From: a virus
Strand: one strand, 5' to 3'
DNA: 36,418 bases
IMG/VR virus record: IMGVR_UViG_3300042691_032500
Location: 1-36,418 of that record
This document shows, piece after piece, positions 1-22,597 of the stretch. Below the pieces are notes generated by a model. It was not told the origin of the DNA. It saw only the letters and a list, made by a program, of their open reading frames with translations, and did no database searches. The translations under genes were made by a program, and so were the position numbers. How positions within the stretch are numbered: position 1 is the first letter of the stretch; each line of letters opens with the position of its first letter.

Positions 1-117
1 GTTAAAGATCTCGCGGGCTTTTTGCGAGCGGCGGCGCAAGTCCGCATGCGCAGTATGGCAAAATGCAGGGCTTGCAGATTTAGCCTAGCGTTTGCGCATT
101 GACACCCGCCGCGCAGT
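1..117. other. Non-coding leader before the terminase genes (possible cos/packaging region)
   Basis: No long gene is seen here. It holds an inverted repeat (CTCGC then GCGAG around GGGCTTTTT, about 10-28) and two copies of the 12-mer GCGCAGTATGGC at 48-59 and 111-122, the second overlapping the first start codon. A 15-codon reading frame starts at the first copy (55) and ends at the TGA at 100-102 inside TTGACACCC. In lambda-like phages cos and terminase-binding repeats lie just upstream of the small terminase gene, so this is a plausible place for them, but no cos site can be proved from the sequence. Confidence 0.35.
99..117 (+). promoter_or_regulatory. TTGACA start-proximal motif (first of eight copies with identical spacing)
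   Basis: TTGACA begins exactly 19 nt before the start codon here and at seven other genes: hexamers start at 99, 2582, 7590, 12593, 17636, 20095, 20620 and 22579, for starts at 118, 2601, 7609, 12612, 17655, 20114, 20639 and 22598. Several read TTGACACCC. Looser copies precede 4575 (hexamer 4552), 7262 (7229), 9483 (9439) and 31330 (TTGACC, 31308). The 13-nt spacer has no Shine-Dalgarno in most cases. The hexamer resembles a -35 box, but a -35 box there would put the transcript start inside the gene. Its function is unknown; a translation-initiation element is my inference. Confidence 0.6.
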
Positions 118-804
118 ATGGCCAAAGGGTCACACGCGCTCTCCGATTTGAAGCGGGCATACTCTGCCGCGCGCGGGATTCCTCTGCGCACGGCCCAGGA
201 CCGGGCAAAGAAAAATCATCCTGACTGGCTGGCGTTCATGGCGGCCATGGGGGCAAAGGCGGCAAGGACGGAAGCTCCGACTGTTCTGGAGGCCCAGGCG
301 CTCACCGTGGTGCAAAGCAAGACCCTGCCACTGCCGCCAGCTGATCCGGACACCATGGACGGCCATATTGCCCCGCCGGCACTGTCCAAGCCTAGGGCGA
401 TGTGGACTCCAGAGGAGTATGCCGAATGCGAGGCCTGGACATCGATGGTGGAGGCGAACAAGCAGCGTGATCGGGCCATCCGCGGCAATGATGGTCCTCT
501 GGCTGTGCTTTACGTCAAGGTGGCCGGGGAGGCGTTCAAGACTTATGAGCGCGCCCGCCGCAACCGCGTCCAGGCTGAGCTGGAATCTGGCAAGCTCAGG
601 CCCATGGCTGACTGGCAGCAGGCCAAGGCCGCCGTGCAAAAAATGGCCGCGCTCTTCGAAGCGATGGACGGGGAGCTAGCTCAGGCCGCCAATCCTGAAG
701 ACCCGTCTGCGGCCATGAAGGGCATTGCCGCCTGGAAAACCCGCCGCTGGAATCCTGCTCTGACAGCGACCATGACGGAACTGACCTTGCTGCCGGCCGC
801 ATGA
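118..804 (+). CDS. Putative terminase small subunit
   Basis: A 228-aa protein directly before, and overlapping by 4 nt (ATGA), the large terminase gene. Its first 40 residues (basic, with an ARGIPLRTAQDRAKK segment) could form a helix-turn-helix that binds packaging DNA. The middle is Pro/Ala-rich and the C-terminal half is helical and charged. Small terminase subunits recognise the packaging site and regulate the large subunit's ATPase and nuclease. The assignment rests on position and general architecture, not a clear family motif. The start has TTGACA 19 nt upstream and no Shine-Dalgarno. Confidence 0.6.
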   Translation: MAKGSHALSDLKRAYSAARGIPLRTAQDRAKKNHPDWLAFMAAMGAKAARTEAPTVLEAQALTVVQSKTLPLPPADPDTMDGHIAPPALSKPRAMWTPEEYAECEAWTSMVEANKQRDRAIRGNDGPLAVLYVKVAGEAFKTYERARRNRVQAELESGKLRPMADWQQAKAAVQKMAALFEAMDGELAQAANPEDPSAAMKGIAAWKTRRWNPALTATMTELTLLPAA

Positions 805-2585
805 CAGCGCGTGATGCAGCCACCATGGCGGAGATCCTGGGCCTGTTCCACCTGGCACCTCGCACGGCCGTGGTGCCGTGGCTTGAACAGCACATCGTTT
901 TGCCTGCCAAGATGGCCCCGAATTCGGCCGGGCCGTTTCGCACAGGCCTGCGCCCCTACCAGCGGCCTATCCTCGAATGCTGGAACCCTGACAGCGGCGT
1001 GCAACACTGCGGTGTGTCGGCTGGCGTTCAGATCGCCAAGACTACAATCCTGGCCCTCGGCCTGAGCTACCGCATTTGCAATTCGCCGCTGCCGGCCTTG
1101 ATCGTCGGCAGCTCCAAGGACTGGACCAAGACGGAAATCAGCGAGAAGCGTCTGCAACCGCTGATCAACGAAAACCCCATCCTCGAAAGCAGGAAACCCG
1201 GCAATTCCGACAACTTCCGTGCCATGGCCATGGACATGGACGGCGGCATGATCAACCTGGTCGGCGGAAACTCACCCGGCGCCCTGTCGGGTGGATCCTA
1301 CGGCATCGTGGCAATCGACGAGGCGGCCAAGCTGATCCACCAGGGCAGCGACCAGGCACCGGAAGCGCACCCTTTCCACCTGGCGGCCAAACGCACGGAC
1401 GGCTTTGGCGCCATGGCCTTTCACTACCGATCGAGCACGCCGAACACCCCCAACCATCCGTTCTGGCAATACATTCTCCTCGGTGACCAGACACGCTTCT
1501 GGGTCGCCTGTCCGCACTGCAAGGGAGAGTTCTACCTGGATTTCGTCAACCGACCCGAGGACCGTGAAGAGTATGCCACCAACACCGGCATCGAGATCAG
1601 CAGCGATTACTTGTCGCTGACCTGGCAGGACGCCCGCGACGGCAAAGGGAACTGGGATGAAACCAAGGTGCGTGAGACCGTCCGCTACATCTGCCCGCAC
1701 AACGGCTGTGAGATCGACGAGACGCACAAGCAACCGATGATTGAGACATGCCAGGAGCACCGGCACAACACCCTGGCGGCCAAGTCACGGCGCAGCTTCA
1801 TCATCCCGTCGTTCTACTCTCCGACCATCAGCTTCGGCACCATGGCCTGGGCCTACCTGGAAGCCCGGCGCGATTTCTTTGGCCTGCAGGACTACTTCAA
1901 CAGCCGACTGGCCAAGCCATGGCAGCAATACGACGTGAGTCTGAAGCTTGCCGACATCGAGCGTTGCCAGCGTGACTATGTGCGCGGCACCGTGCCGTTC
2001 AAGCCGCGGCTCATGTTCCTCGCGGCAGACCCCGGCCAGCTGCTGACGCATTGGGAGGTGGTCGCCATTGATGCCAACGGCGGCCTGTGGATCATTGACT
2101 GGGGCACGGTCCTGAGCAGCAGCGAGCTGATCAATTCCGAGTTTTTGAAAGCCCGCATTTATCCCATCGCAGGCACCACCGAAAAGGCCTACCCGCTGCG
2201 CGGATTTGTGGATTCCGGATGGTTGACCGAAACACAGTTCGATGTCTGCCAGGCCAGCAACGGCTTCCTGTGGCCGACGCGAGGCTCCGACGCCAAGCAC
2301 GGCGGTGTAAGCGAGACCCGCGCCGCCAGCCGGCCAAACCTGAAACTCATCACCTATCCGGATAAACAGGCAAAAGATGAGCTTTACGACGCCAGGCTGG
2401 CCAAAGCTCGTAACGGCGGCATTCACTTCCCAGCCGATGCCGACGCCGCTCTGAAGCTCGGGCATGCAAACCAGAAGCGTGATGCCACAGGCGTCTGGGC
2501 CCGCGTGCCTGACGACCATTTTGGCGACTGCACCAAGCTGAGCATGATCGGCCTATGGTTGGCGCGGTCTGCCGGCATCCTTTGA
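801..2585 (+). CDS. Terminase large subunit, lambda GpA family
   Basis: A 594-aa DNA-packaging motor and nuclease. The ATPase domain has a degenerate Walker A loop GVQIAKT (residues 75-81), as is usual in GpA proteins, and Walker B IVAIDEA (Asp173-Glu174). A zinc-ribbon-like pair follows: C237-P-H-C240 and C298...C303. The C-terminal nuclease half contains MFLAADPGQ and GFVDSGW acidic segments and a late DHFGDC motif. In lambda GpA cuts cos and pumps DNA into the prohead through the portal. Full length for the family. The ATG at 801 overlaps the small-subunit stop, so the two are probably translationally coupled. Confidence 0.93.
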   Translation: MTARDAATMAEILGLFHLAPRTAVVPWLEQHIVLPAKMAPNSAGPFRTGLRPYQRPILECWNPDSGVQHCGVSAGVQIAKTTILALGLSYRICNSPLPALIVGSSKDWTKTEISEKRLQPLINENPILESRKPGNSDNFRAMAMDMDGGMINLVGGNSPGALSGGSYGIVAIDEAAKLIHQGSDQAPEAHPFHLAAKRTDGFGAMAFHYRSSTPNTPNHPFWQYILLGDQTRFWVACPHCKGEFYLDFVNRPEDREEYATNTGIEISSDYLSLTWQDARDGKGNWDETKVRETVRYICPHNGCEIDETHKQPMIETCQEHRHNTLAAKSRRSFIIPSFYSPTISFGTMAWAYLEARRDFFGLQDYFNSRLAKPWQQYDVSLKLADIERCQRDYVRGTVPFKPRLMFLAADPGQLLTHWEVVAIDANGGLWIIDWGTVLSSSELINSEFLKARIYPIAGTTEKAYPLRGFVDSGWLTETQFDVCQASNGFLWPTRGSDAKHGGVSETRAASRPNLKLITYPDKQAKDELYDARLAKARNGGIHFPADADAALKLGHANQKRDATGVWARVPDDHFGDCTKLSMIGLWLARSAGIL

Positions 2586-2600
2586 CACCCGCCCGAAACG

Positions 2601-2942
2601 ATGGCCGCCGATCTCCTCTCGCTCAAAAAATCCTGGCTTTTCCGCGCCCGCATGGAAAAGGGCGCCGCCAACACACAGGAGCAAATCGACTGGCTCTATG
2701 AACGCTTCAAGGAATTTGAAAACGCGGGTCCGGCTGAAGTGACGGCGACCGCCTTTTCCGGGCAATCCGCCTCGATGCAGCACCGAGGCCCCAGCCCCCA
2801 GGAAAACATGGATGCCATCCAACATGCCATTGAGGACCTTGAGGAAACGCTTGCCGGTCAGGCAGCCACCAATTTCAAAAAGCCTTTCGCGTTTCGATTC
2901 ACCCCTGCACCTGCCGACGCTCTTGACGGCCTCAACAGTTGA
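2601..2942 (+). CDS. Small protein in gpW position (putative head-completion protein)
   Basis: A 113-aa protein between terminase and portal, exactly where lambda carries W (head completion). It opens with a helical, basic segment (LLSLKKSWLFRARMEKG), then an amphipathic helix (EQIDWLYERFKEF), a Ser/Gly-rich linker and a second acidic helix. This is longer than lambda gpW (68 aa) and I see no decisive gpW signature, so the role is inferred from synteny. The ATG at 2601 is set by the TTTGACACCC element, whose TGA is also the stop codon of the terminase gene. Confidence 0.5.
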   Translation: MAADLLSLKKSWLFRARMEKGAANTQEQIDWLYERFKEFENAGPAEVTATAFSGQSASMQHRGPSPQENMDAIQHAIEDLEETLAGQAATNFKKPFAFRFTPAPADALDGLNS

Positions 2943-2950
2943 TTCATCCC

Positions 2951-4555
2951 ATGGCAAAACAACGCCGCCAGCCCGCCGCGCCATCCAAGGCCGCCGCCAT
3001 CGTCACCCCTGCCATCTCCAACGCTGGAACCCTGCCGACCGCCAACAGCGTCTATCGCGTGATGCCGACTCAGCAGCCCTGGAGTTCTCGCTCCATGGAG
3101 CTAATCATGAAGACGCGGGACCGGGTGCAGATCAGCCGCTTTCTTCAAGACGCCATCCCGCAGCTTGCTTACTGCATCCAGTCCCTGCCCCGTGAGGCCA
3201 TTGGTCGCGGCATCGGCATCAAGAGCATCTCGAAAAATCCCGAGTTTCGCAAAGCCGCCACCGCCTACTTCCGCACCTGGGCCGATTCGCAGGCCGTTGA
3301 CATTCGCAAGGGCGGCAGCTTCTACGATCTGCAGCCGCTCTGGATCAGCGCGGTGCTGGGTGATGGTGAGGCCTTCGTCCAAAAAGTTTCTGCTGATCTG
3401 CCCGAGGCCATGAAGTGGCGCTTGCAGGACAAATCCCGCCGACGCCTTCAGCTGCAGACCTTTCTGCGCGACCAGCTCACCAACGGCACGGTGACAACGG
3501 CGGAAGCGAAAACATCACGCTGGATGGACGGTCTCAAGTTCAACAACTACGATCAGCTTGAGCTGGTGCGGGTGAATCAGGATCCAGACGCCTACAACCC
3601 GAAAAACTTCACCGACCTGTCGCCCCAGGTGGTGTTTCACATCGTCCAAAAAATCCGGTTCAACCAATACCACGGCCTGCCTTGGATTTTCCGCAGCAAT
3701 GTCGATCTGCTCGACATCCTGGACCTGAAGGCCATCCGAAAACACAGCGCCAAAGTCCGGGCCGCTCTCTTGGGTGCCACGACCACCCGCGACGGCGCCA
3801 TGCCCAATTCCATGCAGCAGGTGCTGGCCGGCACGACCACTGGCACACCTGCCACCGACACCGGGCGGCGGTTTGTCGAGCTGGCGGACGGCGCGGTGAT
3901 GATCCCGCTGGCCGATGGCGAGACCATGAACTTCTTCCAGGGTGGCGAGGCGATTCCCTTCAGCACCATCCTGGAGCAAATCCTCAACCCGTTTGTCTAT
4001 GGCCTCGGCTATCCCGTGGAGTGGATTTTCGGCATGGGCAGCCTGGGCGGCACGGCCTTCCGTGGCCTGATCGAAAAGGTCAAACGCGCTCACGCCAACC
4101 TCCGGCAGATCCTTTACCCATTCCTGCAGTGGTCCTGGGAATGGGTGATTGCCGATGCCATGATGCCAGAGGGTGCCCTGTCGAAATTTGCAGGGGTCGA
4201 GGACTGGAACGACATCGACTTTGTCGCCGACCCGGATCCCAGCGTTGACCTGGGCCGCGACCATAAGGCCGACATGGAGCGCATCGACAACAACCTCATG
4301 ACCGTCGAGGACTACGTCGAAAGCCGCACCGGCGGCAGCGGTGAAGACATCCGCCGCGCCTCGATCGACGAGAAGCTCGATGACATTCAGTATGCCATCC
4401 AGCGCGGCAAGGAAAAGGGTGTGCCTGCTGCGGTGGCAGTTCTTTTGGCCATCCCCAGCCGCAAGCTGCAGGCCGCTTCTGGCATCGTTCAGCAGCTCAC
4501 GCCTGAAAGCCTGGCGGCCGATCTGGAAAATCTGAGCGCCTCGTCCGGGAATTGA
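2951..4555 (+). CDS. Portal protein, lambda gpB family
   Basis: A 534-aa portal, the dodecameric ring at the head vertex through which DNA enters and to which the tail attaches. The family core is visible: VVFHIVQKIRFNQYHGLPW, followed by a helix-rich stem region (LLDILDLKAIRKHSAKVRAA), which matches the lambda-type 'H-x-R...Q-x-R-G-x-P' portal segment. Later helices (LIEKVKRAHANLRQILYPFL) fit the wing/crown. The ATG at 2951 is preferred over the in-frame TTG at 2939, which is part of the previous stop region. It follows the leader TTCATCCC. Lies between the gpW-position gene and the head protease, as in lambda. Confidence 0.9.
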   Translation: MAKQRRQPAAPSKAAAIVTPAISNAGTLPTANSVYRVMPTQQPWSSRSMELIMKTRDRVQISRFLQDAIPQLAYCIQSLPREAIGRGIGIKSISKNPEFRKAATAYFRTWADSQAVDIRKGGSFYDLQPLWISAVLGDGEAFVQKVSADLPEAMKWRLQDKSRRRLQLQTFLRDQLTNGTVTTAEAKTSRWMDGLKFNNYDQLELVRVNQDPDAYNPKNFTDLSPQVVFHIVQKIRFNQYHGLPWIFRSNVDLLDILDLKAIRKHSAKVRAALLGATTTRDGAMPNSMQQVLAGTTTGTPATDTGRRFVELADGAVMIPLADGETMNFFQGGEAIPFSTILEQILNPFVYGLGYPVEWIFGMGSLGGTAFRGLIEKVKRAHANLRQILYPFLQWSWEWVIADAMMPEGALSKFAGVEDWNDIDFVADPDPSVDLGRDHKADMERIDNNLMTVEDYVESRTGGSGEDIRRASIDEKLDDIQYAIQRGKEKGVPAAVAVLLAIPSRKLQAASGIVQQLTPESLAADLENLSASSGN

Positions 4556-4574
4556 CATCCCCGGGCGGGTGTCC

Positions 4575-5750
4575 ATGAAACGCTGGTATCAAATCAAAAA
4601 CCTGGGCCCCGCCGTGGGCGAAATCCGCCTGCGCGGCATCATCGGTTACAGCAAGAAAGATGAGGAGGGATGGTTCGGAACGATTGAAGGCCAGGCCGGC
4701 ACCGTCAAAGAGTTCGAACAGGAGCTTTCTGAGCTGGGCCCGGTGAACAAGATCCATCTCTACATCAGCTCCGAAGGCGGCCTGGTGGCGGATGGTCTGG
4801 CCATTCACAACATCCTGAAGCGTCACCCTGCCGATGTGATCTGCTACATTGACGGTTACGCGTTCTCGATCGCCACGGTCATCGCCATGGCTGCAAAGGA
4901 AATTCACATGCCGGCCAATGCCCTCATGATGATCCACAACGCCAGCGGCTGGACGGATGGCGATTACCGGGACATGAAGCGCATGGCCGAGGCCCTGGAG
5001 GTGCACAACCGCGCCATTCGCAATGCCTATGCCGAGCACAGCGGCCGCGATGAAAAAGAGTTCATCGCTCTCATGGACGCCACCACCTACCTGGACGGCA
5101 ACGACGCCAAGCGCCTGGGCCTCGTCGATGTTGTCACGGATGAAATCGCGCTGTCGAACATGGCCATTCATCCCCGCATTCGCAACTCCGCCGAGTTCGC
5201 CAAACTGCCCACCAGCTTTGCCCGCATGTTTGACATGTCCGCCGCTTCGAAGCCTAGCGCTCAATCCCAGACCCCGCCCCACAACAAAAACGACGACGAC
5301 ACCATGAAACCTCTGATCCTCGCCCTCTGCCAGCTGCACGGCATCACCGTCACCCCGGAGATGTCCGAAGAGCAGCTCGCCGCCGCCATCTCCAATCACA
5401 AGCCGACCGCTCCGAATGCCAGGCTGGATCTGAGCGACGAAGAAACCAAGAAAATCTTCGACAAGGCCGTGGCGGATGCCGTCACCACCCAGCTCAACAC
5501 CCATGTGGCGAACGCCACCAAGGAACTCTCCGAGAAAGTCACCAACCTGGAAGGCCTGATTCGCAACGGTGCCGCTGGTGCCGCTGGTGCTGGCAAGCCT
5601 GTTGCTGGCTCCGGTAACGGAAACGGTGACGGCGCTCCCACCAAGGAGCAGCAGATCAAGGACCTGGAGACGCAGATCAGCAACTGCACCGATCCGATCC
5701 AGCGCGGCAAGCTCGTCATGGATCTCCGCAAGGCCCGCGCCGCCGCCTAA
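4575..5750 (+). CDS. ClpP-like head maturation protease with C-terminal scaffold-like region
   Basis: A 391-aa protein. Residues 1-190 are a ClpP/S14-type serine protease: the glycine-rich substrate loop ISSEGG (64-69), nucleophile Ser98 in DGYAFSIAT, general-base His121 in MMIHNAS, and a candidate catalytic Asp168 before the YLDGNDAKRLGLVD ending typical of the fold. It would process capsid and scaffold proteins during prohead maturation. After a Pro/Asn/Asp linker, residues 244-391 form a helical, Gly/Ala-rich domain that could be the scaffold, as in lambda gpC/Nu3. An in-frame GTG at 4569 is an alternative start. TTGACATCC overlaps the portal stop upstream. Confidence 0.88.
   Translation: MKRWYQIKNLGPAVGEIRLRGIIGYSKKDEEGWFGTIEGQAGTVKEFEQELSELGPVNKIHLYISSEGGLVADGLAIHNILKRHPADVICYIDGYAFSIATVIAMAAKEIHMPANALMMIHNASGWTDGDYRDMKRMAEALEVHNRAIRNAYAEHSGRDEKEFIALMDATTYLDGNDAKRLGLVDVVTDEIALSNMAIHPRIRNSAEFAKLPTSFARMFDMSAASKPSAQSQTPPHNKNDDDTMKPLILALCQLHGITVTPEMSEEQLAAAISNHKPTAPNARLDLSDEETKKIFDKAVADAVTTQLNTHVANATKELSEKVTNLEGLIRNGAAGAAGAGKPVAGSGNGNGDGAPTKEQQIKDLETQISNCTDPIQRGKLVMDLRKARAAA
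5304..5750 (+). CDS. Possible nested scaffold protein (internal start in protease gene)
   Basis: The protease frame contains an internal methionine (residue 244, ATG at 5304) preceded by GACACC, resembling the GACACC before the start at 19369. The product would be 148 aa beginning MKPLILALCQLHGITV, then an acidic helical region, a Gly/Ala/Asn linker and a charged C-terminal helix. Lambda makes its scaffold Nu3 from an internal start in gene C, and this gene has the same layout. No separate scaffold gene is present between protease and capsid. The internal initiation is inferred. Confidence 0.4.
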   Translation: MKPLILALCQLHGITVTPEMSEEQLAAAISNHKPTAPNARLDLSDEETKKIFDKAVADAVTTQLNTHVANATKELSEKVTNLEGLIRNGAAGAAGAGKPVAGSGNGNGDGAPTKEQQIKDLETQISNCTDPIQRGKLVMDLRKARAAA

Positions 5751-5797
5751 AGCATCATCCCTCATCCCTCACAGCATCTCCACCTCACGTTCAAAAA

Positions 5798-7168
5798 ATG
5801 AAACATACCTCTAAGATCCTCATGGCAGCCCTGCTGCTGGTCTCGTTCTGCGTCGGCCTGCAGTTTGCGGTCGCCGCCAGCCCGCTTGCCGGCATCCTCG
5901 CTGCCGCCGCCACTTTCGCGCTCGCCAGCCCCATGATCGTCCTGCACCCGCAGGCAGGCAGGCTGTGCGTCACTCTCACCTCCACGGAAATCCTCATGGA
6001 CGTCATCGAGGCGTTTGCGAAGAGGCTGCCCATTCTGCCTTACATTGGTGCGGACTGGCGTGCGACTCCCCTGAAGCTCAATCAGACTTACAAGGCGCAC
6101 GTTCCTTCGATCCCAGCCGTTGAGGACATCACCAATGCCAACTACGGCAACATGACTGGTCAGACGGCCCGCAGCCTGATGACGGACGTTGACGTGCTGG
6201 TGGATGCCCACAAAGGCGCTCGCATCAAGTGGCAGCACCTGTATTCCATCCAGGACAAAAAGCAGGAGTATGACAAGATCATCGGCCTTTCGGGTTACGC
6301 TCTCGCCAAGAGCGTGATTGATTCCATCATCGGCAAGATGACCACCGAAAACTTCAGCCAGCACAGCCTTTTCGCCGTGGCAGATTCTGACTGCGACATG
6401 CTGGACAATATCTGCGGTGATCTCAACACTGCTGGTGCCTTCCCTTCCGGCCGGTTTGGTGTCGTCAATACCGCCGTGGCAAATGTCCTGGCTGGCGACT
6501 CGCGCCTGACATCGGCTGACTACGCAGGCCAGCGTGTCCGTGGTGAAGGTTATCGCCGCTGGACGGACGTGAACGGGTTTGCTGAGATCATGGAGTATCC
6601 GGACCTTGCCAATACCACCTCCGGCACGGCCCTGACCAGCGTCACGGCTGCCAACTCGGGAGACCTTTTCACCAAAGCCTCTCACGGCCTTTCCACAGGC
6701 CAGACGGTTACGGCGGCCAGCTTCTCCGCTGGTTTCGCGGATGGCACCTACTATGTCATTCGTGTCAGTGCCAACACCTTCCAGCTTGCGACCAGCTATG
6801 CCAACGCCATCGCTGGCACGGCTGCAGCGGTCACTGCTGACGGCACCGGTGGTGTCATCACCCCGACTCAGACCCTGACCGGCTTCTTCGGTGACATGCG
6901 TGCCATCACCCTCCTGGGCGGTGTTCCGGATGGTATCGACACCGTCATTCCTGCCGGCATCAACGTCAACCGTGTGCAGACGGTCGAGGTGGTCACTCAT
7001 CCTGAGCTTGGCATCTCCATGGCTGCCATCACCTGGCAGGATGCTGGAACCGGTGACATCAACTGGATCCCCACACTGGTCTTCGGCACTCGCCTTGGCC
7101 GCAACGGTGCCACCAATGCGCCAGGCTCTACCCTGGATTATGCCGGTCATCGCCTGGTGAGCGCCTGA
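5798..7168 (+). CDS. Major capsid protein with signal-peptide-like N-terminus and inserted domain
   Basis: A 456-aa protein in the major-capsid position after the protease and before a strong terminator. The shell-forming part appears to start near residue 67 (MDVIEAFAKRLPILPYIGADW) and includes IPAVEDITNANYGNMTG and KGARIKWQHLYSIQDKKQEYD, typical of coat proteins. Two oddities stand out. Residues 1-45 look like a signal peptide (Lys, hydrophobic core, AVAAS) followed by a second hydrophobic stretch. Residues about 270-365 (ASHGLSTGQTV ... ANTFQLATSYANAIAG) look like a separate beta domain seen in many virion proteins, inserted into the coat fold. An HK97-type fold is inferred from context. 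Confidence 0.82.
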   Translation: MKHTSKILMAALLLVSFCVGLQFAVAASPLAGILAAAATFALASPMIVLHPQAGRLCVTLTSTEILMDVIEAFAKRLPILPYIGADWRATPLKLNQTYKAHVPSIPAVEDITNANYGNMTGQTARSLMTDVDVLVDAHKGARIKWQHLYSIQDKKQEYDKIIGLSGYALAKSVIDSIIGKMTTENFSQHSLFAVADSDCDMLDNICGDLNTAGAFPSGRFGVVNTAVANVLAGDSRLTSADYAGQRVRGEGYRRWTDVNGFAEIMEYPDLANTTSGTALTSVTAANSGDLFTKASHGLSTGQTVTAASFSAGFADGTYYVIRVSANTFQLATSYANAIAGTAAAVTADGTGGVITPTQTLTGFFGDMRAITLLGGVPDGIDTVIPAGINVNRVQTVEVVTHPELGISMAAITWQDAGTGDINWIPTLVFGTRLGRNGATNAPGSTLDYAGHRLVSA

Positions 7169-7196
7169 TCTGTCTGTTGGTTGATTGATGTTGTTC

Positions 7197-7230
7197 AGCA
7201 GCCCGCCCTGAAAAGGCGGGCTGCTTTTTT
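7197..7230 (+). terminator. Rho-independent terminator after the major capsid gene
   Basis: A perfect 11-bp stem (AGCAGCCCGCC at 7197-7207 with its complement at 7215-7225), a 7-nt loop and a six-T tract. It would limit read-through from the abundant capsid transcript. The last T residues run straight into a TTGACATCC element at 7229. Confidence 0.9.
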
Positions 7231-7261
7231 GACATCCGATCACCTGGGAACACCACACACC

Positions 7262-7498
7262 ATGGCCCGCACACGCATCATCATCGGTTTTTCCGGATCC
7301 AAAGCCAGCCCTCAGCGCTCCCTTGTCTATCTCGGAGAATCCGGTTCAGAGGCTGAGGAGGCCATGAAGCAGTGCACCAGCGCTGAGCGTTTTGAAATCT
7401 TTGAGGGCATGGGCCGCCGGAAGGCCAACCCGCGCTTTGTGCCTGGTGGCATCGAGTCCGCTCCCGAGTCCGCTGGCGCCCGCCGCCGCCGCTCCTGA
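7262..7498 (+). CDS. Small hypothetical protein between capsid and connector genes
   Basis: A 78-aa basic protein. The first 45 residues (RTRIIIGFSGSKASPQRSLVYLGESGSEAEEAMKQ) look like a folded alpha/beta segment, and the last 20 are a Pro/Gly/Arg-rich tail ending in RRRRS. I do not recognise the family. It sits between two terminators with TTGACATCC 33 nt before its ATG, so it may be a separately expressed unit. Confidence 0.6.
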   Translation: MARTRIIIGFSGSKASPQRSLVYLGESGSEAEEAMKQCTSAERFEIFEGMGRRKANPRFVPGGIESAPESAGARRRRS

Positions 7499-7546: not shown

Positions 7547-7590
7547 GAGGGTCGCTCTCTTTGGTTGGGGGGGCGGCCCTCTCTTTTTTT
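7547..7590 (+). terminator. Probable rho-independent terminator
   Basis: A 9-bp stem (GAGGGTCGC at 7547-7555 with GCGGCCCTC at 7573-7581, one G-T pair) around a 17-nt loop, followed by T-rich 7580-7591. As at 7230, the T run merges with a TTTGACACCC element before the next start codon. Confidence 0.65.
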
Positions 7591-7608
7591 TGACACCCTG
7601 CCGCAGGC

Positions 7609-9437: not shown

Positions 9438-9482
9438 TTTGACATGCCGACACCCGGGAAGCCCAAGCGCCCAAACACATCC

Positions 9483-11857: not shown

Positions 11858-11880
11858 ACTCTGATCCATCATCCACACCT

Positions 11881-12363
11881 ATGCCACGCCCCAAAAACCC
11901 ACCGCCAGCGCTGCCAGATCCGGCAGATGACATCCTCGACAATCCCATTGACCAGCAGGCCGCCAGTGAGCGTCAAGCCGCCGTCCTGGGCTCCTCCGGC
12001 CACACCTGGGCGGGTAAGACGCTGCACCCCTTCAGCATCCGCCGTGAGTCGCTGTATTTTCGTCTGAAGGCTCTGCATGCTCATGTCCCTGCCGCTGGCG
12101 TCATGCACACCACTGGCGTGGTTTTGCTGGATACCATGCTGATTCTGTGGCTGTGCTCCCACGAGTCCAAAGACTGGCAGCACCTGCGAGGCGACGGCAC
12201 CAGGTTCATGGAAGTGATTGAGGAGTGGGCAGATGAAAACATTCAGCGCTACCAGCAGGCCGCTGCGGTCGAGTTGGCCATGACGATCCTGCGCGAAGGT
12301 TATTCGACACAGGCAACGCCTCGTCCTGACAACTCCGGCAGTGAGGAATCGCTGGGAAACTAG
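11881..12363 (+). CDS. Tail assembly chaperone, gpG-like (0-frame product)
   Basis: A 160-aa protein just upstream of the tape measure. It has a disordered Pro-rich N-terminus and helical body (LYFRLKALHAHVPAAGVMHTTGVVLLDTMLILWLC ... FMEVIEEWADENIQRYQQAAAVELAMTILREGY). Siphophage tail chaperones coat the tape measure during tail assembly and are usually made as a short form plus a frameshifted long form. Here the final codons CTG GGA AAC TAG contain the slippery heptamer GGGAAAC in the correct phase right before the stop, and the -1 frame continues to 12596. This strongly supports the gpG role despite no sequence signature. Confidence 0.75.
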   Translation: MPRPKNPPPALPDPADDILDNPIDQQAASERQAAVLGSSGHTWAGKTLHPFSIRRESLYFRLKALHAHVPAAGVMHTTGVVLLDTMLILWLCSHESKDWQHLRGDGTRFMEVIEEWADENIQRYQQAAAVELAMTILREGYSTQATPRPDNSGSEESLGN

Positions 12364-12410: not shown

Positions 12411-12596
12411 TGTCCTGGCTCCTTCACTTATGATCAAATCCTCCACGATGTGCCGCTGGCTGTAGGACATGAGCTGATTCACGCGGCCCGCATCCGTGAT
12501 GGTGAGCCCATGGTCTGGCCTGACTCAAGGCTTTCCGTCATCGGTCGATGGTGGGAGCGCGTGCGCGCCAAGTTTGGCTTCTCATACTCGAATTGA
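12360..12596 (+). CDS. Frameshift extension of the tail chaperone (T part of GT)
   Basis: An open frame of 78 codons, shifted -1 relative to the chaperone gene and lacking any ATG at its 5' end. Read through from the slippery site it gives a 238-aa fusion. The extension includes ATYVVLLSRACPGSFTYDQILHDVPLAVGHELIHAARI and the end RWWERVRAKFGFSYSN. In lambda the T domain recruits tail-tube protein while G binds the tape measure. The alternative is an independent gene from TTG 12366 or GTG 12390, which is less likely. Its stop TGA is part of the TTGACACCC before the tape-measure gene. Confidence 0.75.
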   Translation, partial: LALPSSEATYVVLLSRACPGSFTYDQILHDVPLAVGHELIHAARIRDGEPMVWPDSRLSVIGRWWERVRAKFGFSYSN

Positions 12597-12611
12597 CACC
12601 CCGCGAAAATC

Positions 12612-15272: not shown

Positions 15273-15280
15273 ACGCCGCC

Positions 15281-15679
15281 ATGGCCCGCCGGAAAACAGA
15301 GCCCTTTGCCTGGCGCAGGTCTGCAGGTGTCCTGCATCAGTGGATGCTGCGTGAATACATCCGCTGGCTGTTTCCCCAGCTCGGCAGGGCCTATGAACCG
15401 CCGCTGGGTGTGCGAGATTTCACCACCGCCGCCGCCTCACGTTTTGCGGGTAAGCAGCCGCAGCCGTTTCGCCCGCGCTCATCCATCGGGCCCGTCCTCC
15501 GGCGCGATCTCCAAGATTTCACCGACTACTGCTTGGAGGCATTGAGGCCCTACAGCGACCGCACGCCCTACCTCCCGACCCGCGGCAGCACACTCGTCTT
15601 TGTCCCAGATCTCCGCGACCTCCACCAGCATCTAATGACACTGCTTGATAAGAAACGCCAAGCCTCTTCCAGATCCTGA
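15281..15679 (+). CDS. Hypothetical tail protein
   Basis: A 132-aa basic protein, rich in Arg and aromatic residues (FAWRRSAGVLHQWMLREYIRWLFPQLGRAY), with a helical C-terminus (LRDLHQHLMTLLDKKRQ). Not recognised. It sits 8 nt after the distal-tail candidate and 2 nt before the first receptor-binding-type gene, so it is probably a structural adaptor, but nothing in the sequence proves this. Confidence 0.55.
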   Translation: MARRKTEPFAWRRSAGVLHQWMLREYIRWLFPQLGRAYEPPLGVRDFTTAAASRFAGKQPQPFRPRSSIGPVLRRDLQDFTDYCLEALRPYSDRTPYLPTRGSTLVFVPDLRDLHQHLMTLLDKKRQASSRS

Positions 15680-15681
15680 CC

Positions 15682-16617: not shown

Positions 16618-16644
16618 TCGCCCACCCTCATCCCCCACCACCTC

Positions 16645-17622
16645 ATGCAGGCTCAAACCATCAGCATTCACACCGAGACGGGCCAAACCGATGCCAAGGC
16701 CCCGTTGATCGCTCTCACAGGCACGGATTTTGTGCTTCGCTGCACCTTTCTCACCGCCGGGCGCCCGGCCGCCATCGCCAGTCTTAGTGCCAACAGCCTG
16801 CGCCTTTCGGTGAAAGCTGAAGATGCCTTGAATGATGACAGTTCGCTAGTCAGCCTTGGCGCTTGGACCACCGAGGGCAGCGGTGCCACCACCCGTTATG
16901 TTTTCGAGACCGCTTTCGATTCGGCGGCCCTGCGCACGGCTCTGGGCAGCAAGCTAAACCGCCGCCTTTACGCTCAGATCGCCTGGGCTGTTGACGGTGA
17001 GGATTCGGAAAGGCGCAGTTTTCCGATCGAGATCACAGCCATCAACAGCATCACGGAAAGTGGCGATGCCGCCCCGGACACCGCCGACTCTGAAGCCTGG
17101 GCCTGGCTGAAAACTCGCCTGCCTGCTGGCAACCGCATCACTCGCAGCGTGAATGAGGGTGCGCAGACCATCACTTTTTCCGGCAAGGCGCCCACGCTCA
17201 GCCGCAAGACCACCAACACCAACTGTTTCTCAGCTGCCTACACGGATCTCTTCACCCTCGCTGTCGAGGCGAATAAGGTCTATCGGCTGGATGTCAGTCT
17301 CGGCTTCAATCTCGCGGCCGCCACCAAGATGACCGTGCGTGGTTATGGCCCGGCGGGCAGCACCATCAACGGTGTCTGGCGGCCCATCTCCACAGACGGC
17401 AGCTACCTGCTGACGCCTGTCGATTACATTTTCACGGACGCAGGATTCCTGGTGGATGCTCTGAGCGCTGGGTCTGCGGCAGACTATTGGCCGCAAATGC
17501 AAAGCTTCATCATCATCACGTCTTCCACCGCAGGGGATGTCGTCATTCAGGCAAAATCCACCGCCGTTGCCAGCGGCGTGAACAAGTCAGGATCCTGGGC
17601 GCAGCTGACGGAAATCGGCTGA
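16645..17622 (+). CDS. Putative baseplate/receptor-binding protein 2
   Basis: A 325-aa protein with the same two-part plan as its neighbours. The N-terminal domain (TISIHTETGQTDAKAPLIALTG ... LYAQIAWAVDGEDSERRSFPIEI) matches a BppU-like beta sandwich. A short helical linker (DTADSEAWAWLKTRL) follows, then a C-terminal beta domain (YTDLFTLAVEANKVYRLDVSLGF ... SFIIITSSTAGDVVIQAKS). Clear strands throughout. The ATG at 16645 follows the leader CCCTCATCCCC and lies 28 nt after the previous stop. Confidence 0.55.
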   Translation: MQAQTISIHTETGQTDAKAPLIALTGTDFVLRCTFLTAGRPAAIASLSANSLRLSVKAEDALNDDSSLVSLGAWTTEGSGATTRYVFETAFDSAALRTALGSKLNRRLYAQIAWAVDGEDSERRSFPIEITAINSITESGDAAPDTADSEAWAWLKTRLPAGNRITRSVNEGAQTITFSGKAPTLSRKTTNTNCFSAAYTDLFTLAVEANKVYRLDVSLGFNLAAATKMTVRGYGPAGSTINGVWRPISTDGSYLLTPVDYIFTDAGFLVDALSAGSAADYWPQMQSFIIITSSTAGDVVIQAKSTAVASGVNKSGSWAQLTEIG

Positions 17623-17654
17623 TGGCTGGCCTGGTTTGACACCACTCCACCTCC

Positions 17655-19364
17655 GTGGAGTCCACGATCTACATCAACACCACCCTTCGGGAGGCCCGTG
17701 CAGGCACGACCGGCGCCGGGCTGCCTGAAATCACCCTCACCCTCCTCGCGCAGTGGCTCTGTCACATCCGCTTCTTTGCCCCGGGTGAGGAGCCTGCCTT
17801 GCTCAGTTCTCCGGCCTTTGTCCTGTCGATCAAGGAGACCCCCACCGGCACGGCGCTGGTTCGCACGGAAAGCGTGGCTGAAAACGACGACGGAGACGGA
17901 TACGATTTCGAGTTTGAGTCCATCGACGGTGAAAGCCTGCGCGCGCTCTTGGGCGATGAGCCGATCCTTGACCTGGTGCTTGAGCTCGAATGGACCGTGG
18001 ACAGTGTCACGGAGCGCGTGCACATGCCCTGCACCGTCATCAATGCCTACAATCGCCCTGACGATGTCGCGCCAGATCCTGCGGAGGCGGAGACAGATGC
18101 CTGGCTGGCCGCCCGGGCAGTGCGTTTTGACAGTGCTCAGACGCTGACCACGGAGCAAAAAACCCAGGCCCGCAGCAATATCGGCGCCGCCGCCAGCACT
18201 CATACTCACAACATCGCGGATGTCAGTGGTTTGCAAAATGCGCTCGACGGCAAGTCTGCCAACGGTCACACGCACAACATCAGTGACGTCAGTGGCCTGC
18301 AGACCGCGCTCGACAACAAGGCTGCCAGCGGTCACACGCATTCCAATGCGAGCACCTCTGTTGCGGGATTCATGTCGCCGCAAGATAAGACCAAGCTCGA
18401 CGGGCTCGGTGAGGGTGTGACTGAAACCGTGCCCGCCGTAGCTCAGGTGAGCACGATCACGATCAACACCAGCTCGGCCAGCGATCTCGACGGCGATTAT
18501 ATTGACGTGCCTATCACCGGAGCCACCGTGCGAGCCTGGTTCGACATCGACAACTCCGGATCTGCTCCAGCCTCGCCATCTCCAGGCCGCCTGATCGAAG
18601 TCGATATTTCCAGCGCCGGCAACTCGGGCGACTTTTCTTTAGCGTTGGCTGCGGCTCTCGCTGCCGATCCAGATTTAAATGCCTCCAGCTCTGGTAACAC
18701 GACCACGGTTGACCAGCCCGCTGGTGCATTGTCCGCGCCGTCCACAACCGACAACAGCAACATCGCAATCGTCGTCACGACGCCAGGCACCGATGCGTAT
18801 CCGCGGTTTCTCCCCATCGAGGGCAGCCAGGTCACGGCGGTGAACGCTGCGCTGCTCGAAGGCACTCCAGCCGCTGGTTTTGCTTCATTCAGTCATACGC
18901 ACGATTATCTCACGGATCTTACGAACCGCCCGCAGTGCAAGAGACTTGCCAGCGATTTTGTCTCAACATCCACATCGCTTGCCAGCGTTAGCAGTCTGGC
19001 TGTCTCAGTGCAGAATGGCAAAACCTATCACTTTGATTTTCACGGCTTTTACAGCACCTCAAGCAGCATAGAAGATGCTGGTTTTGCCATGCTTGGTCCG
19101 ACGGCAACGAACATCGTTGTGCAGAGTGAAATCATCACCGCCAGCACTGGCACAACCTCATTTGCACGCGCCACGGCCTGGGACACGATTCATCAAACCA
19201 ACGCTGCCACTGCCAGGACCAATGTGCCTTTTCGCATTTCTGGAATGTTCACCGCTTCGGCGGATGGAACCCTTGTTCCACGTCTGAAAACAGAGCTCAG
19301 CTCAGCCGGTCAGAGCACCACCATTCTTTCCGGCGCGGCCCTTCATGTGATACCCGTTGACTGA
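17655..19364 (+). CDS. Tail fibre / receptor-binding protein 3 with HTH iron-type repeats
   Basis: A 569-aa fibre. Order: BppU-like N-terminal domain (1-150), two and a part copies of the 22-residue fibre repeat HTHNIADVSGLQNALDGKSANG-type (about 183-230), a beta domain containing VSTITINTSSASDLDGDYIDV and an FDIDNSG motif (about 265-390), another HTHDYLTDLTNRP turn, and a C-terminal head (VSVQNGKTYHFDFHGFYSTSS ... ISGMFTASADGTLVPRLKTELS) like that of the protein ending at 16617. HxH motifs in T4 gp37-type fibres bind iron along a trimer axis. Start is GTG at 17655, 19 nt after TTGACA. Confidence 0.75.
   Translation: MESTIYINTTLREARAGTTGAGLPEITLTLLAQWLCHIRFFAPGEEPALLSSPAFVLSIKETPTGTALVRTESVAENDDGDGYDFEFESIDGESLRALLGDEPILDLVLELEWTVDSVTERVHMPCTVINAYNRPDDVAPDPAEAETDAWLAARAVRFDSAQTLTTEQKTQARSNIGAAASTHTHNIADVSGLQNALDGKSANGHTHNISDVSGLQTALDNKAASGHTHSNASTSVAGFMSPQDKTKLDGLGEGVTETVPAVAQVSTITINTSSASDLDGDYIDVPITGATVRAWFDIDNSGSAPASPSPGRLIEVDISSAGNSGDFSLALAAALAADPDLNASSSGNTTTVDQPAGALSAPSTTDNSNIAIVVTTPGTDAYPRFLPIEGSQVTAVNAALLEGTPAAGFASFSHTHDYLTDLTNRPQCKRLASDFVSTSTSLASVSSLAVSVQNGKTYHFDFHGFYSTSSSIEDAGFAMLGPTATNIVVQSEIITASTGTTSFARATAWDTIHQTNAATARTNVPFRISGMFTASADGTLVPRLKTELSSAGQSTTILSGAALHVIPVD
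18201..18341 (+). repeat. 66-nt tandem repeats coding for HTH fibre motifs
   Basis: Two tandem units (18201-18266, 18267-18332) and the first codons of a third (HTH, 18333-18341). They encode HTHN-I-x-DVSGLQ-x-ALD-x-K-x-A-x-G. Such units vary in number between related fibres and change fibre length. Confidence 0.8.
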
Positions 19365-19368
19365 CACC

Positions 19369-19770
19369 ATGGAACTTTCCACTGCTGACATTGTGAGGCT
19401 CGTATGGCGTGACCGCCAGTTTGTCGTGGATGACGGCGCCTTCATCTTTGCTGATGGCCTTCCAGGGCCAACGCCAGAAGAGATCGAGGCCGCGAGGGCT
19501 CAGGCATTGACTGTATGGGAGCAAGAGCGCCAGTCAGCTTTGCAATGGGACAACGCCCAGGACTTCATGGCTGCGTTCACGATGCTGGAAAAGGCCGTCA
19601 TCGCCCTCAGCACAGATCCGACCATCGCCGCGCTACGCCTGGAGCTTTCCACCTGGTTTTCCGCCGTGCATCCGTCGGACGAGCGCGTGCAGACCGGGCT
19701 CAATCGGCTGGTTGATCTGTCCATCATCACCGTTGAACGCAAGGCTGAAATCATCAGCACCGCCCACTGA
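19369..19770 (+). CDS. Hypothetical protein after the tail fibre (possible fibre-associated or chaperone)
   Basis: A 133-aa, mostly helical protein: EEIEAARAQALTVWEQERQSALQWDNAQDFMAAFTMLEKAVIALS. The front has a strand-rich piece with FVVDDGAFIFADGLPGPTPEE. Tail-fibre assembly chaperones commonly sit directly downstream of the fibre, and this gene does, but its sequence does not match the usual chaperone domain by eye. ATG 19369 chosen over the in-frame TTG 19357, which lies within the fibre's 3' end. CTGACACC precedes it. Confidence 0.55.
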   Translation: MELSTADIVRLVWRDRQFVVDDGAFIFADGLPGPTPEEIEAARAQALTVWEQERQSALQWDNAQDFMAAFTMLEKAVIALSTDPTIAALRLELSTWFSAVHPSDERVQTGLNRLVDLSIITVERKAEIISTAH

Positions 19771-19789
19771 AACCCCTTCGACATTCCGC

Positions 19790-20098
19790 ATGAGCGATCG
19801 TCATGTTGCCCGTTTCACTCTTGGTCTCGGTATCCTTGGACTGCTTGGCACCATCGCCGTTCAGGTCTACACCACCGGCACGATCAAGGGCATGATCACC
19901 ACCAAGATCACCGAGCATGAGCGGCGTCTCGACACTCATGACACCGACCTGAGGCAGATCACCTCGACCACGGACAACCTGGGCAGGGACGTTGCCGAGA
20001 TCAAAGGCAAGCTCCACGGCATTTCCAGTCAGGTGGGCCGCGTGCCCAGCCGGGTGGCCGCTAAAATCACAGGACAGGAAGGCATCAGCCAGAATTGA
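19790..20098 (+). CDS. Membrane-anchored coiled-coil protein of the lysis cassette
   Basis: A 102-aa protein: one transmembrane segment (FTLGLGILGLLGTIAVQVYTTG, about 9-30) then a heptad-like coiled coil (KITEHERRLDTHDTDLRQITSTTDNLGRDVAEIKGKL). The plan matches XhlA/inner-spanin-type proteins next to holins and endolysins. Together with the lipoprotein that follows it could form a two-component spanin linking inner and outer membranes. The ATG at 19790 gives this clean topology. The frame is open further upstream, but that part overlaps the previous gene. Confidence 0.6.
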   Translation: MSDRHVARFTLGLGILGLLGTIAVQVYTTGTIKGMITTKITEHERRLDTHDTDLRQITSTTDNLGRDVAEIKGKLHGISSQVGRVPSRVAAKITGQEGISQN

Positions 20099-20113
20099 CA
20101 TGCGCTCATAAGC

Positions 20114-20347
20114 ATGAGCCAGCGCCGTCCTTTTTCTCTGATCGTTGCCCTTGTCGCCAGCCTCAGCCTTCCGAGCTGCGTGCAGCCCGGCAGCGCCACG
20201 GCCGGCAAGCTCGGCAAGCTGCAGGCCAGATACGAGGACACCACCGGCATCACCGCCATTCAAACTTTGGGCCTGCTTTCCAAGTGGTATGTCGACTATC
20301 AGGCCGCCCGCTCCCTCAACGCCCCGGACATGACCTCCGCCAAGTGA
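20114..20347 (+). CDS. Small lipoprotein, o-spanin-like
   Basis: A 77-aa protein with a basic start, a hydrophobic core and a lipobox LPSC (Cys22) as cleavage/lipidation site, leaving a 56-residue mature lipoprotein. In Gram-negative phages such lipoproteins next to a membrane coiled-coil protein act as outer-membrane spanins that fuse the membranes during lysis. Alternative: a superinfection-exclusion lipoprotein. ATG lies 19 nt after TTGACA, whose TGA is the previous gene's stop. Confidence 0.65.
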   Translation: MSQRRPFSLIVALVASLSLPSCVQPGSATAGKLGKLQARYEDTTGITAIQTLGLLSKWYVDYQAARSLNAPDMTSAK

Positions 20348-20384
20348 GGCCCCAGATCCCCGAACCCTCACCGCCCCGAACGCC

Positions 20385-20642
20385 ATGGAAATCCTGACTG
20401 ACCTCTCCTCCCTCGTGCCTGCCCAGCATCGCGGCACCATCGCCCTGATCACCGTGGGCATCATGGTCCTGGGCCGCGCCTTCCAGGCCGTGAAAGCCGG
20501 TGGCGGCCTGATCGGCATCTGGCAGGCCCTGCTTTACGGGACCAACACTCCGAAGGACAAGCAAGCTCCGCAGACCCTGCAACCGCAGATTCACGAGCCC
20601 CCTGGGAAACCTGGGGGCTTTGACATTTCCAGGCAGGCATGA
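20385..20642 (+). CDS. Holin-like small membrane protein
   Basis: An 85-aa protein with a transmembrane helix GTIALITVGIMVLGRAFQAV (about 17-36), a Gly-rich weakly hydrophobic segment (GGGLIGIWQALLYG) and a polar, Pro-rich tail. Size, position and overlap with the lysozyme start (ATGA) fit a holin that times lysis. The 3' end also holds a hairpin (20596-20621). No specific holin family is recognised. Confidence 0.6.
   Translation: MEILTDLSSLVPAQHRGTIALITVGIMVLGRAFQAVKAGGGLIGIWQALLYGTNTPKDKQAPQTLQPQIHEPPGKPGGFDISRQA
20596..20621 (+). terminator. Hairpin inside the holin-like gene before the endolysin
   Basis: A 7-bp stem (AGCCCCC at 20596-20602 with GGGGGCT at 20613-20619), one T-T mismatch, two inner G-C pairs and a GAAA tetraloop, followed by only three T. 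May act as a weak terminator or modulate lysozyme translation; it lies just before the TTGACA at 20620. Confidence 0.45.
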
Positions 20643-21109
20643 TCGTCTCTCCTCTGGGTTTGCAGCTCGTGAAGCATTTCGAAGGCCTTTTTCTGACTGC
20701 CTATCAATGCCCGGCTGGCATCTGGACGATCGGCTATGGTCACACCGGCCTGAAGCACAACGACGGCACCGTGAAAAAAGGCCGCAAGATCACAGCCGAC
20801 CAGGCGGAAATGCTCCTCGCCTTTGATCTCGAGACCAAATACGGCCCAGCCGTCCAGCGGCTGCTCAAGGTGCCCGTGGCCCAGCATGAGCTGGACGCCC
20901 TGGTGAGTTTTCATTTCAACACCGGATCCCTGGGCAAGTCCACGCTTCTGGCCAAACTCAACGCCGGAGACCGCCTAGGAGCCGCCGAACAGTTTCTCCG
21001 CTGGACTCGTGGCGGTGGCAAAATCCTGCCCGGTCTCGTCCGCCGCCGCCAGGCTGAGCGGCACCTGTTTTTGACCGGTGAACTGAAGACAGATTTCCCG
21101 TCCGCCTGA
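20639..21109 (+). CDS. Endolysin, GH24 lysozyme (muramidase)
   Basis: A 156-aa peptidoglycan-cleaving enzyme of the T4/P22 lysozyme type. The catalytic signature is plain: Glu15 in KHFEGLFLTAY, Cys24 at the position of T4 Asp20, and Thr30 in WTIGYGHT. Later family motifs ELDALVSFHFNTG (about 86-98) and LVRRRQAE (about 135-142) are present. Lacks a signal peptide, so it depends on the holin to cross the inner membrane. ATG lies 19 nt after TTGACA and overlaps the holin stop by 4 nt. Confidence 0.92.
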   Translation: MIVSPLGLQLVKHFEGLFLTAYQCPAGIWTIGYGHTGLKHNDGTVKKGRKITADQAEMLLAFDLETKYGPAVQRLLKVPVAQHELDALVSFHFNTGSLGKSTLLAKLNAGDRLGAAEQFLRWTRGGGKILPGLVRRRQAERHLFLTGELKTDFPSA

Positions 21110-21120
21110 AAGTGTAAAAA

Positions 21121-21320
21121 GAGGGTATCTAGAAACGCCCTCTGAAAACCCCTCGAAAGCTCAATCCTCAAAACCCTTCGAATCCCCTTAGCTCCACCAC
21201 CGCAAAAAGCGGTGTGGAATGTTGAAAATGAGGGAAGTATGAGGGAATCTAAGGTTGCTTAGAGGGTGGCTGAAATGGGCTGAAAATGGCTTTTCCTGGC
21301 CTTTTGGAGAGGGTAAAAGC
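21121..21320 (+). repeat. GAGGG-type repeats flanking attP (putative integrase arm sites)
   Basis: Short copies of (T/A)GAGGG(A/T) occur at 21121, 21229, 21240, 21261 and 21309 around the attachment core; the pair at 21229 and 21240 share TGAGGGAA. Tyrosine integrases with an N-terminal arm-binding domain use such repeats beside attP. Function is inferred. The same stretch contains an imperfect hairpin at about 21195-21217 (6-bp CACCGC/GCGGTG-type stem). Confidence 0.4.
21177..21199 (+). other. Attachment site core, 3' end of a tRNA-Ala-like gene (attP)
   Basis: The sequence reads TTCGAATCC, then CCTT, then AGCTCCACCA: a tRNA T-loop, T-stem 3' side, acceptor stem 3' side and CCA. AGCTCCACCA is the usual 3' end of bacterial tRNA-Ala. 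The bases before TTCGAAT do not pair as a T-stem, so it is only the tRNA end, as in phage attachment cores that restore the host tRNA on integration. It lies 87 nt upstream of the integrase gene, with phage genes on both sides. Confidence 0.75.
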
Positions 21321-22566
21321 GGGTATGAAATCCGCCAAATCTCGGACCGCTGCGCAGATCGTCAGCTTTGGCGGGGCGTCGGCGCGGGTCCGGCAGCGGT
21401 CGGATGGGCTCTGGGTGGTGCGCTGGCGTGAGGCGAAAAAGGGCAGGTCCACCACGGCGATCAGCAAAGAGCGGGCCATGGAGCTTGCCAAGACGCGGGT
21501 GCGTGAGCTGGCCGGCAAGTCGGGTGCGCGCATGGTTTCCGTCATCGAGGCGGAGGCGATTGCACGGCTGAAGGGCGTGATTGGAGCGCGATCACTCAGC
21601 GCGGCGGTGGACACGCTGGCGGACGGTGTGCAGCGGCTTGGTGACTGGGCGCAGGTGTCGCGGGCAATTGAGGCCTGGATCAAGGCGGGTCATGGCAAAA
21701 TCCAACGCACGGCGGTGGAGGCTGCTGTGGAGCGTTTCCTGGCGCTGCACGAGCAATCCGCTGGAATGTATCGCGGAGGCATGCGGAAGGAGCTGGAAGC
21801 CTATGCGGAGGCCTTCCCAGGGCTCTGTGTGAGCGACATCACCGAGGACATGCTGAGCGACTGGATCAACCGCCGCCTGCAGTCCGGTGATGAGCCGGGC
21901 CCGCGCTTCCGCAACAACCGGCTCGCGACCTGGAAGACGTTCCTCAATCAATGCCGCCGCTGGCACATGCTGCCTGCCGATGGCAAGCACCCGGGCGAGA
22001 CGATCAAGAAGCAGAAGGAACCTGACCGCGTGCCGGACATCTGGACGGTGGACCAGGCGCAGCGTGCCCTGGATCTGGTGCGTGAGCAGGATCCGCAGAT
22101 GCTGTCCTACCTGCTCCTGGGCTGCTGGATGGGCCTGCGGCCGTTTGAGATCCAGCGGCTGACCTGGGAAGCCTTCGACTGGACACGCGGCTACCTGAAC
22201 GTGGGCGCCCATGTGGCGCAAAAGACCATGCAGCAACGGTTCGTGCCCATCCCGGAAAACATCGCGCCCATGCTGCTGGAGCGCTCCAAAATCCGCACCT
22301 GGGGCGTGCAGCAGATCAGCAAGGCGCGGCACTGTGTGCGCATGCACGATGCCCGGAATCTGGCGCAGCTGCTGCGGCAGCATGGGGTCATCCAGGAATG
22401 GACACAGGACGTGATGCGCCACAGCTACATCAGCTATCGGTTGGCTCAGGGCCATGGGCGCGGTGAGGTGGCTGAGTGGTGCGGCAACTCAGAGACCGTC
22501 ATCCGCCAGCGTTACAGGCGGCCTCTGAGGCGAGAGGACGGGGATGCCTGGTTTGCTGTGAGGTGA
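21286..22566 (+). CDS. Tyrosine-family site-specific integrase
   Basis: A 426-aa recombinase. Catalytic residues visible in order: Arg285 in GCWMGLRPFEIQRLTW, Arg378-His379 in DVMRHSYISY, and the nucleophile Tyr410 in IRQRYRRP. The N-terminal 110 residues (QIVSFGGASARVRQRSDGLWVVRWREAKKGRS) look like an arm-type DNA-binding/AP2-like domain, and 130-240 contain the SAM-like core-binding domain. It would recombine the tRNA-derived core just upstream with the host tRNA gene. The first His of the usual HxxRH box is Asp here, a common variation. Confidence 0.92.
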   Translation: MAFPGLLERVKAGMKSAKSRTAAQIVSFGGASARVRQRSDGLWVVRWREAKKGRSTTAISKERAMELAKTRVRELAGKSGARMVSVIEAEAIARLKGVIGARSLSAAVDTLADGVQRLGDWAQVSRAIEAWIKAGHGKIQRTAVEAAVERFLALHEQSAGMYRGGMRKELEAYAEAFPGLCVSDITEDMLSDWINRRLQSGDEPGPRFRNNRLATWKTFLNQCRRWHMLPADGKHPGETIKKQKEPDRVPDIWTVDQAQRALDLVREQDPQMLSYLLLGCWMGLRPFEIQRLTWEAFDWTRGYLNVGAHVAQKTMQQRFVPIPENIAPMLLERSKIRTWGVQQISKARHCVRMHDARNLAQLLRQHGVIQEWTQDVMRHSYISYRLAQGHGRGEVAEWCGNSETVIRQRYRRPLRREDGDAWFAVR

Positions 22567-22597
22567 GGGACTCCCAGGTTGACAGAGGTGAAAAGGT

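Follow-up and report, generated by a model that had tools for sequence, protein, structure and literature searches.

A TTGACA element at a fixed distance before late-gene starts in a group of phages, a candidate promoter of unusual geometry

In the large group of uncultivated phages described here, many late genes have the hexamer TTGACA beginning exactly 19 nt upstream of their start codons, and the element to which it belongs is probably a late-gene promoter of unusual geometry, one that would give rise to leaderless or short-leader mRNAs. The analysis started from a 36,418-bp stretch of viral DNA, hereafter the window. All 15 TTGACA copies in the window are on the + strand, which is the strand of the assigned genes, and their total is not above chance (14.8 expected). 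Eight of the 15, however, have their first base exactly 19 nt upstream of an ORF start. ATG/GTG starts of ORFs of at least 80 aa occur at 0.0086 per position, so that about 0.13 would be expected at any given distance, and by our own arithmetic the probability of eight at one distance is about 1e-13 uncorrected, or about 1e-8 when all hexamers and distances are allowed for. What is anomalous in the window is the position of the hexamer, not its frequency. The eight sites had been listed in the earlier note, and each was confirmed in both coordinate and spacing. The absence of a Shine-Dalgarno (SD) sequence, also claimed there, holds for seven of the eight, but the site at 22579 has the SD-like GAGGTGAAAAGG between the hexamer and the start. 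Four related sites were absent from that list (4552, 5230, 7229 and 9439), and relatives carry sites before the corresponding genes, while the copies at 3297, 18127 and 35888 are inside genes and look like chance occurrences. The sites, with two hairpins, are:

99..104, + strand: TTGACA, 19 nt to start 118 (gene in the small-terminase position); putative +1 at 118
2582..2587, + strand: TTGACA, 19 nt to start 2601 (113 aa gene between terminase and portal)
4552..4557, + strand: TTGACA, 23 nt to ATG 4575 (ClpP-like protease); its TGA is the portal gene stop
5230..5235, + strand: TTGACA within the protease gene, 74 nt to the in-frame internal ATG 5304
7197..7225, + strand: terminator-like hairpin, fold -23.9 kcal/mol, ending 3 nt before the TTGACA at 7229
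7229..7234, + strand: TTGACA, 33 nt to ATG 7262, with GGAA at positions 18-21
7590..7595, + strand: TTGACA, 19 nt to start 7609, directly 3' of a terminator-like hairpin and T-run
9439..9444, + strand: TTGACA, 44 nt to ATG 9483, with GGGAA at positions 17-21
12593..12598, + strand: TTGACA, 19 nt to start 12612 (577 aa, tape-measure-like position)
17636..17641, + strand: TTGACA, 19 nt to GTG 17655 (tail-fibre-like)
20095..20100, + strand: TTGACA, 19 nt to start 20114; its TGA is the stop of the preceding ORF
20596..20619, + strand: GC-rich hairpin, fold -24.9 kcal/mol, ending at the TTGACA at 20620
20620..20625, + strand: TTGACA, 19 nt to start 20639 (endolysin)
22579..22584, + strand: TTGACA, 19 nt to start 22598; SD present, C after the hexamer absent

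The site matching window position 99 is present in four other loci (L001-L004), there with GTG at 19 nt. The 2582 hexamer shares its TGA with the terminase gene as that gene's stop codon, and the orthologues of the 2601 gene have the hexamer at 19-21 nt. The site inside the protease gene (5230) is kept in L001 and L002 and stands at 21 nt in family A; the internal ATG at 5304 is likely the start of a nested scaffold. In L002, a TTGACA at 7406, in the same setting as that at window position 7229, is exactly 19 nt from the start. The endolysin start at 20639 is right, because the family match begins at residue 2. The 22579 site is a doubtful member of the set.

Close relatives were retrieved with the large terminase and portal, distant ones by a pattern scan of viral contigs, and further families with the portal or protease of the distant ones. 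The pattern scan returned few real matches among many chance ones, and a genome scan with the terminase alignment gave no matches. The window belongs to family B, with which family A shares about 25% identity in the portal and about 31% in the terminase. Family E was retrieved by the L092 protease, with at least two of its loci (L354 and L363) coming from B contigs already in the set, and C-near by the portal of L090. When every hexamer was ranked at every distance upstream of ORF starts, the top two in family A were TTTGAC at 20 nt and TTGACA at 19 nt, and TTGACA at 19 nt came first in family B. The A and B set comprised 27 non-redundant loci with 375 kb in total; of its 197 TTGACA copies, 61 are exactly 19 nt before a start, with 4, 11 and 19 copies at the neighbouring distances of 18, 20 and 21 nt. 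At 19 nt in the same loci, permuted hexamers gave a mean of 0.57; all six TTGACA bases matter, since single-base variants gave only 0 to 3. For 57 of the 61, the start is the first possible one of its ORF. The peak was replicated in family E (48 of 154 copies at 19 nt), C-near has 3 of 13 there, and Akkermansia phage Moulinsart is without the feature. Chance was considered as an explanation and was ruled out by the permuted hexamers, the single mismatches and the new families. The earlier suggestion that a start-linked signal reaches beyond one phage is borne out by the 19-nt peak over permuted controls in A and B and its recurrence in E, and the observation is confirmed as real, general and stronger than could have been known from the window.

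In the window-type genomes, the sites are located in the structural and lysis (late) module, and the early genes are largely without start-linked sites. With AGGA, GGAG or GAGG as the criterion, an SD precedes 37% of the early genes in four such genomes, as against 0 of 17 TTGACA genes, to which window site 22579 is the exception by eye, and 6% of the other late genes. The earlier note had suggested a translation-initiation element or another start-linked signal. As a translation element, UUGACA on the transcript, 19 nt upstream of the start, would recruit the ribosome through S1 or another factor, replacing the SD. The exact spacing to start codons, the missing SD and the tolerance of GTG are all consistent with such an element. 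UUGACA is not complementary to the CCUCC anti-SD core. However, 50 of 53 late genes without a nearby hexamer in the window-type genomes also lack an SD, indicating that TTGACA is not needed for SD-less translation; most SD-less late genes must be translated without it.

The distances themselves also speak on this point. They are one-sided, with a sharp floor at 19 nt, almost none below it and a tail to about 50 nt, and those of the protease orthologues are 19, 19, 21, 22 and 23 nt, never less than 19. This argues against a ribosome signal, because such a signal should scatter around an optimum. The consensus of 78 sites at 19 nt is (C/T)-T-TTGACA-C, with the T before the hexamer in about 80%, then C-rich sequence to position 12, and, in its 3' part, G17 (65%), C18 (81%) and A or G at 19; upstream of this consensus, no position is strongly conserved. 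Sites in A and B with the start codon 25-60 nt away keep R19 (p = 6e-4) and A20 and A21 (p ~1e-7), in a sample that includes homologous capsid-gene leaders and is not fully independent, and the long-leader sites of family E have C18 in 74%, R19 in 79% (p 2e-6) and A20 in 48%. Since the C|R mark is kept there without a start codon, it is a second mark at a fixed distance from TTGACA, which a translation element would not account for. C|R is the common look of a transcription start.

The start codons add a further constraint. In A and B, GTG is found at 26 of 44 starts at 19 nt vs 0 of 59 at 21 nt or more (p 6e-13), a bias that is absent in family E (3 of 30 at 19 nt, 6 of 42 at 24 nt or more). 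The starts at 19 nt in A, B, C-near and E comprise 124 ATG or GTG codons and zero TTG or CTG, the choice expected of a leaderless-mRNA promoter; in mycobacteria, the rule for leaderless translation is an ATG or GTG at the 5' end (PMC4633059). A strong translation signal could equally tolerate GTG, but the lack of TTG at 19 nt weighs against it. Taken together, the earlier reading stands in so far as the signal is start-linked and not of the SD kind, whereas a role in translation initiation is not supported, given the one-sided distances, the start-independent mark, the confinement of GTG to 19-20 nt and the fact that most non-SD late genes are hexamer-free. We regard the translation element as an unlikely explanation, and probably a wrong one.

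TTGACA is also the sigma70 -35 consensus, and an ordinary -35 box with a 17-bp spacer would start the RNA about 16 nt inside the gene. The distance would be right for such a box in the relatives described below (P8625 and C-far). At the 19-nt sites, however, positions 23-28 hold no -10 hexamer or -10-like column; single mismatches are not tolerated; and the N-termini are right (endolysin match from residue 2; first possible start in 57 of 61), so the RNA start would fall inside verified genes. We find this reading scarcely credible, and the earlier opinion that use as a -35 box with transcription starting inside the gene is unlikely has held up.

We instead favour a promoter of the form T-TTGACA-N12-C|R(+1), with T-TTGACA-C as its core and no -10 box. 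The hexamer would occupy positions -19 to -14 relative to a transcription start marked by C followed by A or G. From the floor at 19 nt, the C|R mark and the ATG/GTG bias, all of them indirect signs, we infer that the mark is the RNA 5' end. An ATG or GTG falling at +1 would yield a leaderless mRNA whose codon is translated from the 5' end, as we predict for most of the mRNAs from the TTGACA sites, and where no start codon is at +1, a short A/C-rich, SD-free leader would run to the first ATG. Each element would drive a single late gene or a short late operon. An RNA polymerase working from TTGACA at -19 with no -10 box is not known to us, and no description of a start-linked TTGACA element was found in the open-access literature. 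If the promoter is real, transcription would start from a sequence identical to the -35 hexamer at about half the usual distance and with no -10 box, and a phage group would read many of its late genes from leaderless mRNAs in bacteria some of which have been reported to be SD-poor. Starts and late genes in these uncultivated phages could then be called by a simple sequence rule, and the hunt for the factor recognising the element would have a testable line to follow.

The same 5' ends would result from a cleavage signal, with an endonuclease that cuts late transcripts a fixed number of nucleotides from UUGACA and leaves them leaderless, and the strict hexamer and strict distance would suit this. 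It would leave the 34-36 nt class of the sister phages (below) unexplained, and we know of no endonuclease that cuts 13 nt from its recognition site in such a manner; we consider cleavage very improbable. Hairpins of -22 kcal/mol or lower are found just upstream of the hexamer at 13 of 112 sites vs 3 of 373 controls, several of them with T-runs. They do not prove a new RNA start, because in Verrucomicrobia phage P8625 (L256) a strong GC-rich hairpin with a T-run (~11880-11917) precedes by about 15 nt the start of a gene without TTGACA.

Sister phages place the same hexamer elsewhere. The C-far contigs, with portals 41-50% identical to those of C-near, have no TTGACA at 17-23 nt before starts, and instead show a sharp peak at 34-36 nt (12, 15 and 4 copies), often in the extended form TTGACATTCGCG; the loci with such sites before ATG or GTG are L276, L283-L289 and L391-L393. 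In P8625, the sites at 5412, 10736, 15558 and 22406 are exactly 36 nt before annotated ATGs, with an inverted repeat of the GTATCC-N7-GGATAC type between hexamer and start at three of them. These sites resemble the 19-nt element in the hexamer and in the fixed distance to an ATG or GTG, but differ in that 34-36 nt is the usual -35 distance, and in carrying TTGACATTCGCG or inverted repeats. If the RNA starts at the codon, this is an ordinary -35 distance, and the P8625 and C-far sites would constitute a second start-linked promoter layout. One hexamer at two exact distances is easily explained if promoters set the RNA start at the codon, but sits uneasily with a ribosome signal. SD usage showed no difference between C-far and the other families. 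As a separate observation, four loci with sites at 35-36 nt (L292, L293, L295 and L297) have ATCTAAC after TTGACA together with a GTTAGA/TCTAACA arm that matches it, a pattern suggestive of a site for a dimeric regulator surrounding the hexamer.

Among known systems, leaderless promoters with a -10 box adjoining the ORF have been described in Deinococcus-Thermus (PMC12340547) and mycobacteria (PMC4633059). Like the phage element as we propose it, they are transcription signals at a fixed distance, with the RNA start at an ATG or GTG codon and no SD, but their conserved box is the -10 of host genes, whereas the phage element has TTGACA at -19 to -14, no -10, and late genes downstream. The Start-Associated Sequences of Cluster K mycobacteriophages (PMC3203893) are likewise phage-specific, start-fixed repeats that are absent from the host genome and sometimes include the preceding stop. 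They differ in being 13-bp repeats with AGGAG, located 3-7 bp from the starts of non-structural genes and proposed to act in translation; the phage element departs from GGGATAGGAGCCC at 3-7 bp before the start in both sequence and distance.

The stoperators of Cluster A mycobacteriophages, 5'-GGTGGMTGTCAAG, come close in another way: their reverse complement includes TTGACA with a C-rich stretch after it, as does the phage element, and they too occur in many copies, in one orientation and in short intergenic gaps, sometimes overlapping a stop codon. A phage repressor or silencer site of this kind, in short gaps before genes, would fit in that stoperators, taken in the direction of transcription, read CTTGACAKCCACC and several in D29 are 24-26 nt before starts (consensus PMC5712189), and in that the window phage encodes an integrase and may be temperate. 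Stoperators, however, are bound by a repressor (PMC5712189) and stand at 24-26 nt or other distances, with an SD between site and start, as in D29, and only TTGACA and the C-rich flank are common to both, with no conserved 13-mer matching the 13-bp GGTGGMTGTCAAG. Silencing would also leave the exact 19 nt, the lower limit, the second mark and the GTG bias unexplained, and the sites of the window-type genomes are in late genes only. We judge it improbable.

As for what would read the promoter, Pfam recognised no polymerase or sigma factor in the window, and no known RNA family was found there. At BLAST level, the only genes common to all four motif-bearing families are the terminase, portal and protease, all three present in C-far as well, with no non-structural gene among them. 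The lack of a common phage factor gene points to a host factor, and the recognising factor is presumably supplied by the host, although it may instead be a diverged phage protein. Because the most closely related named phages have Akkermansia and Puniceicoccales as hosts, the present ones probably infect Verrucomicrobiota; some Verrucomicrobiota have been reported to be SD-scarce (PMC10783764). That an RNA polymerase complex of some Verrucomicrobiota, in its own or a phage-altered form, recognises TTGACA at a distance of 19 bp from +1 with no -10 box, with many structural genes expressed from leaderless ATG or GTG starts, is a tentative extension to which we would give slightly less than an even chance. 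A host-wide feature, raised in the earlier note, was not supported: in 84,980 prokaryote species genomes, scanning for an extended form of the element gave only 19 chance-like matches, none in Verrucomicrobiota, in a test of limited power given that this form fits 3 of 77 (about 4%) phage sites. Wide use of the element in hosts is unlikely, and use in a narrow clade is possible.

Some minor features of the window deserve mention. Its late genes without TTGACA (e.g. 8994, 10549, 14382, 16645 and 24832) often have a C-rich, TCATCC-type stretch immediately before the start, with SD absent. A 281-aa early protein (30466-31311) is common to families B and E (31-54% identity) and was not found in A or C; it has no Pfam match and is possibly a regulator. 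Next to it, positions 31315-32781 encode a ParB-like protein.
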